DNA from: Pseudomonas sp. FP453
GTDB lineage: Bacteria > Pseudomonadota > Gammaproteobacteria > Pseudomonadales > Pseudomonadaceae
Assembly (NCBI RefSeq): GCF_030687495.1
Contig: NZ_CP117435.1
Location: forward strand, 1,054,001-1,118,000
Direction of reading: 5' to 3'
DNA: 64,000 bases
The notes beneath the pieces were generated by a model that made no database searches, was not told where the DNA came from, and saw only the letters and a list, made by a program, of their open reading frames with translations. Shown here piece by piece: positions 19,044 to 40,924 of the stretch. Position 1 is the stretch's first letter, and the number at the start of each line of letters is the position of its first letter. The position numbers and the translations under genes were made by a program.

Positions 19044-19415
19044 TCAGCTGTCGAAGGCATCTTTGAGCCAGTTCAGATCAGCCTGACCAGACGGTGTGCG
19101 TTCTATGGCAACCACATCGAAACGGCAGGGGGCGTCGGCCCAGCGATGCTCTTTTTGCAGGAAAAACTGCGCGGCGAGTATCAGCTTCTGACGCTTGCGC
19201 TCGTCGATACTGGCGAGCGCGCCACCCCATTGTGCGTGTTTTCTGTAGCGGACTTCGACGAATACTACTGTATCGCCGTCAAGCATGACCAGATCAAGCT
19301 CACCGCGTTTACATAACCAGTTCTGCGCCAGAAGGCGCAGACCCTGCTGTTGCAAATGTTTCAGAGCTTGCAGTTCGGCATCCTTGCCGCTTTGTGCGCT
19401 GGACCGCTCGGGCAT
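19044..19415 (-). CDS. yraN: YraN family protein (UPF0102, endonuclease-like fold)
   Basis: A 123-residue cytoplasmic protein of UPF0102. The conserved core [22 protein letters not shown] near residue 37 keeps the Glu-Asp-Glu residues of Holliday-junction-resolvase-like folds; function is unproven. The start ATG overlaps the lpoA stop as TGATG at 19413-19417, which shows translational coupling in the lpoA-yraN-diaA-dolP unit. A gap of about 90 bases separates it from diaA. Confidence 0.9.
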
Positions 19416-21225
19416 CAGCGCGGCGTGTCGGGCAGGCGCTGGATGTCACCGCCGACGAACTTGGCCCATGGCATCTGGCGGTCAACACGTTGGCTGGCGC
19501 TGATGCCCAGGTTGCCAGAGAGGCCGTCGATGCGGGTGTCCGGCAATGCCTTGAGCTGACCCAGGCGCGGCGCCAGGCGATAGGCGTCAACGCCCATCGC
19601 GTACAGGCGACCCAGGCTGCCATTGGCTTGCGGCCATTGTGCGGCAACCTGGTTGCGCAGCGGGTCGGTGCTGTTGAGCAGCCAAGGGGTTTCGCAGAAC
19701 ATCACGTTTGGTCATGTCCAGGTACTGGTTCTTGTCGCCACTGGCGCTGAATACGTGGGACGTCGCATACACCGGTACGTCACCGGCGTATTGGAAGTTC
19801 AGGGTCGGCTTGATCTGCTGGGCCAGTTGCGGGGTCACGGCCAGGAAGATGAACTCGATGTCCTGGCGGCGAAGGTTGTGCGGCAACGTCGGTGCCGACG
19901 GTGCTTTGCAGGCTCTTGGCGCGACCTTCGCTTTTGCGCAGCTGGAACAGGTCGGCGATCTGCTGGGCGAGGGCGACGGGTTGATCGACGTATTCGACGC
20001 CGACAACGGTGCCGCCATTGGCTTCCCAATCCTGACGGAAGGCTTTGTAGACACGCTCGCCCCACTCGCCACGCGGGACCATGGCGGCAGCGCGATGCAG
20101 GCCGTCGGCCCGGGCACGGCGCGAGACTTCGCGGGCTTCGTCTTCAGCCGCGAGGCCGAACTGGAACAGCTGCGCCGGGTTCTGGTCGGCCTCGCTGTAG
20201 TTCAGGGCGAGAGTGGTGATCGGCAATTGCGGGCGGGCGCTCAGCTGTTTGACCAGTGGTTTTTCCAGCGGGCCGACCACCAGTTGCACGCCGGCCGCCT
20301 GGGCCTTGGCGTAGAAGTCATCGATGGAGGTCAGGCGCGAGCTGTCAAAGAACTCGATGACCGGCGGCTTCTGCCCGGCTTGCTCAGCCTGGTAGTGCGC
20401 GGCCATGAAGCCTTCGCGCAGTGCCTTGCCCACGGAAGCCAGCGGGCCCTCCTGTGGCAACAGCAGGGCGATCTTGGTCAGGGGCTGGCTGGCCAGCTCC
20501 TTGAGCTTGGTCAGCGGTGTCGGCAGTTGCAGAGCTGCCGGATGGCCCGGGTTCTGCGCGCGCCAGGTATCGATGGCAGCTTGTTGTTGCTCCAGGGTAC
20601 CGGCGCCCTTGACCGCCTGGGCCAGGGAGATCCAGCCGTCGAGCGTCGGGTTGCCGCTGGCTTGCAGCTGGTCGGCAGGCACTGCGGCAATCAGGGCCCA
20701 GGTGGCTTCGTGATTGCTTTTGGCGGCATCGCCGCTGAGCAGCGGAGCCATGGCCACGCGCTCGCGGGCAGCGGCGAGTGTCTGGCCGTCTGCTTCATAG
20801 GCGCGGGCATGCACGCTGCCGGTGCGCAGCTGCTGCTCGGTCGGCAGGTCCTTCAGGCTGAGCAGGCTGGGATGGCTGAGCGCCGTCAGTGCGGCCTTGG
20901 GCTGGTTGCGCGCCATGGCCAGTTCGGCGGCCAGGGTGCTGGCAAAGACTTGCGCGGCGGGCTTGAGGACATCCAGGGACACTTGCGCAAGAATCTGCGA
21001 CGAGCGGCCAGGGTTGTTCTGCTTATAGGCCATGTCTGCCGCACTCAGGCGCAGCAATGCGGCCTTTTCTGGCGTCTTGGCGGTGGTGGCCTGTTCGAGC
21101 AATTGCTCGATACTGGCGTCCGGGGTCCGTGGAAGGTCGCCAAGGCTGGACGAGGGCGAGCTGGCGCAGGCCGCCAGGAGGGCAGCGAGGCAGAGGGCGG
21201 AGAGCAGCCGCAGGCAAGCGATCAT
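19415..21225 (-). CDS. lpoA: Penicillin-binding protein activator LpoA (frame broken by two apparent indels)
   Basis: LpoA is an outer-membrane lipoprotein that activates the bifunctional peptidoglycan synthase PBP1A from outside. The signal peptide ends with lipobox LLAAC; an N-terminal TPR-like part and a C-terminal type I periplasmic-binding fold (LLLPQEGPLASVGKALREGF near residue 255) follow. The frame reads normally to about 19873, then shifts, then shifts again at about 19708, and the end (MFCETPWLL...) lies in a third frame. One extra T/A at 19872-19873 and one extra base in the TTT at 19707-19709 explain both; removing them gives 602 residues, the normal length. A TTG eight codons upstream is rejected in favour of ATG 21225 with AGGAA upstream. 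I regard the breaks as sequencing errors. Confidence 0.88.
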
Positions 21226-21423
21226 GTAAGTGTTCCTGATACCGATCAAATTAGCGTGGAATTGTACCCAAGCACTGGCCCAGGCGCGATGTTACTGGCG
21301 TGAAACCGTCGAATTAGGTCGTGCAAATGTTGCCAGCAGTCATCTGCGGCTGAGGGTGAGGGCATATTATCGAGGCGCCTACGCGCTACAATGCGACTTT
21401 TCCCAACCATCGAGGTGTGCGTT

Positions 21424-38701: not shown

Positions 38702-39899
38702 ATGTTCGAACTCGTAGACAACATCCCCGCAAGCCCGGTCATCAAAGTGATCGGTGTCGGCGGTGGCGGCGGCAACGCTGTCAACCATATGGTCAAGAGC
38801 AACATTGAAGGCGTTGAATTCATCTGCGCCAACACTGATGCCCAGGCGCTGAAAAGCATCGGCGCGCGGACCATCCTGCAATTGGGGCACCGCGGTGACC
38901 AAAGGCCTCGGCGCTGGCGCCAACCCGGAAGTCGGCCGTCAAGCCGCCCTGGAAGACCGCGAGCGTATTGCCGAAGTGCTGCAAGGCACCAACATGGTGT
39001 TCATCACCACGGGCATGGGCGGCGGTACCGGTACCGGTGCTGCACCGATCATTGCCGAAGTGGCCAAGGAAATGGGCATTCTGACGGTTGCTGTCGTGAC
39101 CCGTCCGTTCCCGTTCGAAGGCCGCAAGCGCATGCAGATCGCCGACGAAGGCATCCGTCTGCTGTCTGAAAGCGTCGACTCGTTGATCACCATTCCCAAC
39201 GAGAAGCTGCTGACCATCCTGGGCAAGGACGCGAGCCTGCTGTCCGCTTTCGCCAAGGCTGACGATGTACTGGCCGGTGCCGTTCGCGGTATCTCCGACA
39301 TCATCAAGCGCCCGGGCATGATCAACGTCGACTTTGCCGACGTCCGTACCGTGATGAGCGAAATGGGCATGGCGATGATGGGCACTGGCTGCGCCAGCGG
39401 TCCGAACCGTGCGCGTGAAGCCACTGAAGCGGCCATCCGCAACCCGTTGCTGGAAGACGTGAACCTGCAAGGCGCACGCGGCATCCTGGTGAACATCACT
39501 GCCGGTCCTGACCTGTCCCTGGGTGAGTACTCCGACGTGGGTAGCATCATCGAAGCCTTCGCGTCCGAGCACGCCATGGTCAAGGTCGGTACCGTTATCG
39601 ATCCGGACATGCGCGACGAGCTGCACGTGACCGTGGTTGCCACCGGCCTGGGTGCCAAGATCGAGAAGCCTGTGAAGGTCATCGACAACACCCTGCACAC
39701 CAGCCAGGTGAGTCAGGCGGCTGCTGCTCCAGCGCCTTCGCGCCAGGAACTGCCGTCGGTGAACTACCGTGACCTTGACCGTCCGACCGTGATGCGCAAC
39801 CAGGCTCAGGCCGGTGCTGCGGCGTCCCGTAGCCCGAATCCGCAAGATGATCTGGACTACCTGGACATCCCGGCATTCCTGCGTCGTCAGGCCGATTGA
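38702..39899 (+). CDS. ftsZ: Cell division protein FtsZ (one apparent indel)
   Basis: The tubulin-like GTPase that builds the Z ring. The N-terminal [11 protein letters not shown] loop and tubulin signature [20 protein letters not shown] are present, as is the conserved C-terminal peptide [14 protein letters not shown] that binds FtsA and ZipA. After residue 61 the frame shifts: TTGGGGCACC at 38882-38891 should have three G, not four. Correction gives 398 residues. The 66-base ftsA-ftsZ gap carries GAAAGGAGAGGGAAC before the ATG, a very strong ribosome binding site fitting the high FtsZ level. Confidence 0.95.
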
Positions 39900-40013
39900 T
39901 GGAATGTGTATCAGGGCTATGAAGGTGATTGGTGTTCAGCAAAGGTCTGGTCTGCTATTATCGCCAGCCTTTGTTGATACCAGTTCGCAATTTGCGCTCA
40001 AGCGGTCCAAGCC

Positions 40014-40924
40014 ATGATTAAACAACGCACCCTGAAGAATATTATCCGTGCCACAGGTGTAGGTCTGCACTCCGGGGAGAAGGTATACCTGACCCTCAAA
40101 CCTGCACCTGTCGACACCGGCATCGTGTTTGTTCGTGCCGACCTGGACCCTGTGGTGCAGATTCCTGTCGCGCGGAAAACGTTGGCGAAACCACCATGTC
40201 GACCACATTGGTCAACGGTGACGTCAAAGTGGACACGGTGGAGCACTTGCTCTCGGCCATGGCTGGCCTGGGCATCGATAACGCCTACGTCGAGCTCTCC
40301 GCGTCTGAAGTCCCGATCATGGATGGTAGCGCTGGACCTTTCGTATTCCTGATTCAATCTGCCGGCCTGGAAGAACAGGACGCAGCCAAGAAGTTCATTC
40401 GCATTCTGCGGGAAGTGACAGTAGAAGACGGCGACAAGCGCGCCACCTTCGTCCCGTTCGAAGGCTTTAAAGTGAGCTTTGAGATCGATTTCGATCACCC
40501 GGTATTCCGTGACCGCACCCAAAGTGCAAGCGTGGATTTTTCCAGCACTTCGTTCGTAAAAGAAGTCAGCCGCGCCCGTACCTTTGGTTTCATGAGTGAC
40601 ATCGAGTACCTGCGCAAGCACAACCTCGCACTCGGCGGCAGCGTTGAAAACGCCATTGTGGTCGACGCGGATGGTGTACTGAACGAAGACGGCCTTCGCT
40701 ATGAAGACGAATTCGTGAAGCACAAGATCCTCGATGCAATCGGTGACCTCTACCTGCTGGGCAATAGCCTGATAGGCGAGTTCAAAGGCTTCAAGTCGGG
40801 CCACGCCCTTAACAACCAGCTGCTGCGCAAGTTGATTGAGCAGACAGACGCTTGGGAAGTCGTGACCTTCGAAGATGCCAGCACCGCACCGATCTCTTAC
40901 ATGCGTCCCGTTGCGGCGGTGTAA
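40014..40924 (+). CDS. lpxC: UDP-3-O-acyl-N-acetylglucosamine deacetylase LpxC (one apparent indel)
   Basis: The committed zinc-dependent step of lipid A synthesis. It starts [21 protein letters not shown]; zinc ligands are the His in [13 protein letters not shown] and the His and Asp of [14 protein letters not shown]; the catalytic [12 protein letters not shown] stretch is near the end. The frame shifts near 40169, where GTCGCGCGG should probably read GTCCGCGCGG, one base lost; the corrected protein has 303 residues, the normal size. This is the only apparent deletion, the rest being insertions. It lies 114 bases after ftsZ, a gap likely to hold its own promoter. Confidence 0.94.

Follow-up and report, generated by a model that had tools for sequence, protein, structure and literature searches.

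Several described cases show how small errors in sequence data can imitate broken genes. Apparent frameshifted pseudogenes have been documented in an assembly labelled Pss508, presumably P. syringae judging by the label, and the part of that report drawn on here also gives a case in which errors detected in under 0.05% of the genome accompanied 23.3% pseudogenes, with 5.6% after correction (PMC12007338). In the same part of that source, most long-read errors sit at homopolymers, homopolymer indels account for 92% of the errors in PacBio CCS data, and insertion errors of nanopore reads at short runs are also described. For PacBio RS, indel errors are about 15 times as frequent as substitutions and show no bias from longer homopolymers, according to the portion of PMC4719071 used here. 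Here we describe a finished Pseudomonas genome in which eight genes between lpoA and lpxC, ftsZ among them, carry frame changes. An earlier note on this DNA had taken these breaks for sequence error. Our comparison with related genomes indicates that they are, in all probability, consensus errors of the assembly and not mutations of the strain.

Materials and methods

The window is the whole stretch of DNA that was analysed, 64,000 bases in length, corresponding to bases 1,054,001-1,118,000 of a Pseudomonas genome assembled as one contig of 6,282,155 bases. Positions are those of the window unless given on the contig (G000:C1). The reference, taken from 398 genomes of the genus, was the conspecific genome G312 (about 190 contigs), which is ~99.1% identical, and 99% identical in murE. 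Contig C164 of G312 was used together with DNA stretches from five other relatives, which are about 89-90% identical in murE. Five blocks of the genome were compared with G312, and 372,101 of their 554,000 bases entered the comparison. Pieces of the alignment shorter than 1,500 bases or less than 94% identical were dropped; in other comparisons the limit was 2,000 or 800 bases. There were 92 length differences in all, and 32 with poorly matching flanks were left out of the listing. The statistics on runs and direction and those on density used 52 and 48 of the 92, respectively (indels of up to 10 bases with flanks at least 0.93 identical); for the set of 48, called clean frame-changing indels below, the length additionally had to be other than a multiple of 3. 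Counting open frames reciprocally gave a result obscured by long antisense frames, and this was set aside as a control. A probability that every hit would miss the spared genes was likewise set aside, having been defined post hoc.

Results

Comparison of 16 G312 proteins with the six-frame translation of the window showed eight genes that are cut or switch frame and eight that lie in a single frame. The lpoA gene (LppC family; 19415..21249), the only one on the minus strand, is spread over three frames, with one extra base near 19709 and two missing bases near 19871 relative to G312. The other genes given with coordinates from rsmI to lpxC lie on the plus strand. In rsmI (21391..22297), one extra base near 22261 affects only about the last 11 residues. 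The gene matches over residues 1-290 of 301, residues 291-301 being lost, and its open frame of 296 aa scores above the TIGR00096 cut-off, so it is barely broken. The ftsI gene (24789..26542) runs over three frames, with a 7-base tandem duplication near 26157 and one extra base near 26278, and ftsW (31800..33025) likewise runs over three, with single extra bases near 32208 and 32277. Two frames are seen for ddlB (35523..36480; +1 near 36245) and three for ftsQ (36486..37357; +1 near 36525 and +1 near 36872). Both ftsZ (38702..39899; +1 near 38887) and lpxC (40014..40924; -1 near 40167) are split in two, and the intergenic stretch between them (39900..40013) has two extra bases near 39908. NCBIfam put names to seven broken genes from their unmended pieces, and the eighth, lpoA, was named by Pfam only, with the LppC family on its longest piece. 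Interleaved with these genes, murE, murF, mraY and murD (26542..31803), murG and murC (32985..35526) and ftsA (37373..38635) are each intact, as the earlier note had said, and so is rsmH (23555..24502); all eight are in one frame and full length against G312. The segment 22,298-24,788, which holds the RNase P RNA (22394..22747, matched over its full length), mraZ, rsmH and ftsL, has zero length differences from G312.

The alignment of window positions 13,016-64,000 with G312 contains, in the long pieces retained, 15 length differences, 13 of which lie at 19,709-40,167; 12 of these are in the eight genes and one is in the ftsZ-lpxC spacer. The frame changes that the earlier note had reported in the eight genes were recovered at all 12 sites, within 7 bases of the positions it gave. 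It had ascribed every break to single-base changes, eleven of the twelve being one extra base. All eight genes do change frame, but the extra base accounts for nine of the twelve, the others being the 7-base duplication in ftsI, the loss of two bases in lpoA and the loss of one in lpxC. Its restored ftsI of 583 residues differs from the 581 residues in G312, probably because the +7 was treated as +1, and its count of twelve missed the thirteenth difference in the spacer. All eleven insertions in the stretch are copies of the adjacent base or bases. None of the 13 differences is present in G312 or, where aligned, in the five other relatives (G017 is unaligned at the last two sites, 39,908 and 40,167); near 19871 and 36525 the aligner's placement of the gap varies among relatives, and total lengths match G312. 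In the five relatives, 79 of 79 gene copies examined gave one hit in a single frame without stops, with hits under 55% identity set aside and a few ends off by 1-5 residues; the 80th copy, lpxC of G017, lay outside the retrieved stretch and was left out. Errors in G312 instead of in this assembly are rejected, as the other relatives agree with G312 where aligned. Two further sites lie at 63,428 and 63,939. The first, in an efflux-adaptor-like gene (AaeA/HlyD type; 62605-63579), is a one-base length difference from G312 and G375, with the other relatives unaligned; the second is a one-base difference from G312 inside a 153-aa G312 frame.

Similar indels occur elsewhere in the genome. The dcw stretch from lpoA to lpxC has 13 clean frame-changing indels in 21,524 bases, and the rest of the sample has 35 in 350,577 aligned bases, a difference in density of about six times. 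Among the 48 in the 372,101 aligned bases, 13 fall within one 20.6-kb stretch, which was reached in 1 of 20,000 shuffles (the stretch length having been set post hoc). The ratio of one-base insertions to deletions is 9:1 inside the stretch and 24:6 outside it, and one-base insertions are present in all five sampled blocks. Were these real differences between two strains, no lean to either side would be expected, and the lean therefore points to consensus error in this assembly. As the insertion-biased indels also strike unrelated genes elsewhere, the dcw stretch is a hot spot of a wider error, and the error that the earlier note had described for this stretch is not confined to it. The genes affected outside it include those for an MFS transporter, a chemotaxis receptor, an aldose-epimerase-like protein and an SbcC-like protein (3 of 18 sites were not placed), and some of the outside differences may be real strain differences. 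At G000:C1:2677509-2677879, there are four small indels in about 370 bases, and the one site checked there falls in no G312 frame of at least 120 aa.

Neighbouring indels no more than 550 bases apart were observed 9 times elsewhere in the sample against 1.8 expected, and 6 times inside the dcw stretch against 3.4 expected, which is not significant. Outside pairs some 150-370 bases apart are found at G000:C1 1005593/1005869, 1130570/1130718, 2655052/2655266 and 2719753/2720123. Such close pairing would fit small patches of poor support. The GC content within 50 bases of the dcw sites is ordinary (0.61 versus 0.62), which speaks against GC-driven drop-out there, and elsewhere the sites are a little richer in AT (GC 0.577 versus 0.615). 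The synteny of C164 with this genome breaks at G000:C1 near 1138306 (C164 below about 128,200), and the remainder of the contig matches G000 at ~2.64-2.77 Mb, pointing either to a rearrangement or to one of the two assemblies being misjoined.

The earlier note had explained the breaks as homopolymer overcalls, that is, runs read one base too long, as could happen with pyrosequencing, ion-semiconductor or nanopore data. This explanation concerns the technical cause only and overlaps with our own, so the likelihoods of the two do not have to add up to certainty. Run lengths had been proposed as a check against close genomes, and at the nine +1 sites, each one base longer here than in G312, the unexpanded runs are 1, 1, 1, 2, 2, 2, 2, 3 and 3 bases long. 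The rate per run in the dcw stretch does climb with run length, from 3 of 11,591 runs of one to 4 of 3,644 runs of two and 2 of 686 runs of three, and of the 24 one-base insertions outside the stretch, 5 fall at a run of four or five bases. Runs of four or more number 130 in the dcw stretch and none is affected, which is uninformative, as the rate at runs of three predicts fewer than one event. Against overcalling as the only cause, just 6 of the 12 genic changes extend runs of two or three, 3 double a lone base, and the remaining three are +7, -2 and -1; outside the stretch, 4 of 24 one-base insertions are unlike either neighbour. Error as a diagnosis is well supported, and homopolymer overcalling is too narrow a label. 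Even with most long-read errors located at homopolymers in the part of PMC12007338 used here, we consider pure overcalling doubtful, perhaps a one-in-four prospect, and an insertion-biased long-read consensus error would fit better. The two papers do not point to a single platform, and nanopore reads may still have been the source, because that part of PMC12007338 describes nanopore insertion errors at short runs.

The genes ftsZ and lpxC are generally essential, and one of each was found in the genome, both split across two frames. The 6,282,155 bases yielded no second copy of ftsZ, lpxC or dcw DNA; for dcw the search addressed DNA from lpoA into ftsZ, not distant paralogues of ftsI, ftsW and ddlB, with 40 of 367 candidates scored. 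The corresponding 20 kb of G312 has one full match in this genome and three more of only 34-66 bases. Second functional copies, which the earlier note had named as evidence that would count against it, were thus not found. Between positions 18,001 and 42,000, there are 189 substitutions relative to G312, of which 33 are private to the window, 44 are private to G312 and 112 are undecided. As the window-private ones do not exceed those private to G312, the excess is confined to indels. The eight broken genes have 55 synonymous and 7 nonsynonymous substitutions relative to G312 (n = 62), the eight intact ones have 103 and 10 (n = 113), and for ftsI, ftsW, ftsQ, ftsZ and lpxC pooled the counts are 23 and 0. 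Four of 15 window-private substitutions in the broken genes are nonsynonymous (in lpoA, rsmI and ddlB) versus none of 15 in the intact genes; these small numbers lean against the error reading. The 7-base tandem duplication, atypical as a base-calling error, also counts against it. Overall, the broken genes show no relaxed selection, and real pseudogene decay is rejected on this ground. The view that the breaks are error and not decay is upheld by changes private to this assembly, the lack of a substitution excess, the mostly synonymous substitutions, a search that found no second copies and the same kind of indels in unrelated genes. These results also bear on true inactivating mutations that would be tolerated through intact copies missing from the assembly or collapsed in it, as in a merodiploid or a mixed culture. 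A collapsed second copy would be invisible in a finished assembly, but the copy search, the substitutions and the similar indels in unrelated genes elsewhere speak against this, and we regard it as highly improbable. We give just as little credence to the broader idea that the length differences are real and that the cells survive despite broken frames in ftsZ and lpxC, by frameshift suppression or by hidden intact copies in a mixed population.

Overexpression of some division genes is harmful, and such genes are in the broken set. It is conceivable that the stretch, which is about the size of a clone, was filled with cloned DNA from an E. coli host, in which selection would favour inactivation of toxic division genes. 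The 12 hits over 16 genes landed in 8 genes and the random mean is 8.5, so that the tally is as expected by chance and gene-targeted inactivation is rejected. Moreover, four genes have two hits, one hit is intergenic, the interspersed mur genes are spared, indels of this kind are also present in the remaining sampled blocks, and no literature on this point was among the matches listed. A cloned origin is thus very unlikely. Programmed or suppressor-driven +1 frameshifting that reads through real frame changes is the least credible explanation of all, for although 11 of the 12 genic changes are +1 modulo 3 (nine +1, one +7 and one -2), an insertion-biased error would produce the same lean, the lpxC shift is in the opposite direction, four genes would need two shifts apiece, no common motif is visible by eye in the letters around the sites, and the length differences are absent from the relatives.

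Discussion

The frame changes between lpoA and lpxC are most likely an artefact of a known kind, denser in the dcw stretch than in the other stretches sampled. The sparse scatter of one-base and other small indels across the sampled genome, with its bias towards insertions, and its sixfold concentration from lpoA to lpxC, would have arisen from an error-prone and imperfectly polished long-read consensus in which insertions exceed deletions and substitution errors are rare; the lpoA-lpxC stretch itself may have had poor read support. If so, the dcw and lpxC genes very likely exist in the living cell as intact single copies, and the eight envelope and division genes are very probably intact there. 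As a warning the earlier note is right and useful, though some of its details are wrong.

Read literally, this assembly would have the strain carrying ftsZ, lpxC and other core genes as pseudogenes. The genome is a single contig rated 100% complete, and such errors can therefore enter surveys of gene loss, pan-genomes and drug targets. With 35 indels in 351 kb outside the hot spot, some of which may be real, the whole 6.28 Mb would by extrapolation hold several hundred suspect sites.

Compared with known systems, pseudogene decay shares with this locus only the broken frames; here no relaxed selection is seen, the genes are core and single-copy, and the changes are private to one assembly. The PacBio RS profile, as given in the portion of PMC4719071 used here, is alike in that indels far exceed substitutions and depend little on homopolymer length, and the lean to insertions here resembles it as well, but it describes raw reads, whereas this genome is a finished consensus. 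With the gene-fragmenting indel errors of long-read bacterial assemblies (Kastor), in the part of PMC12007338 drawn on here, this genome shares rare indels that create many apparent frameshifted pseudogenes and that are detected against reference genomes. In the nanopore example given there, deletions after long runs are prominent, whereas in the genome studied here the prevailing changes are one-base insertions at runs of 0-5 bases, and there is a local hot spot.
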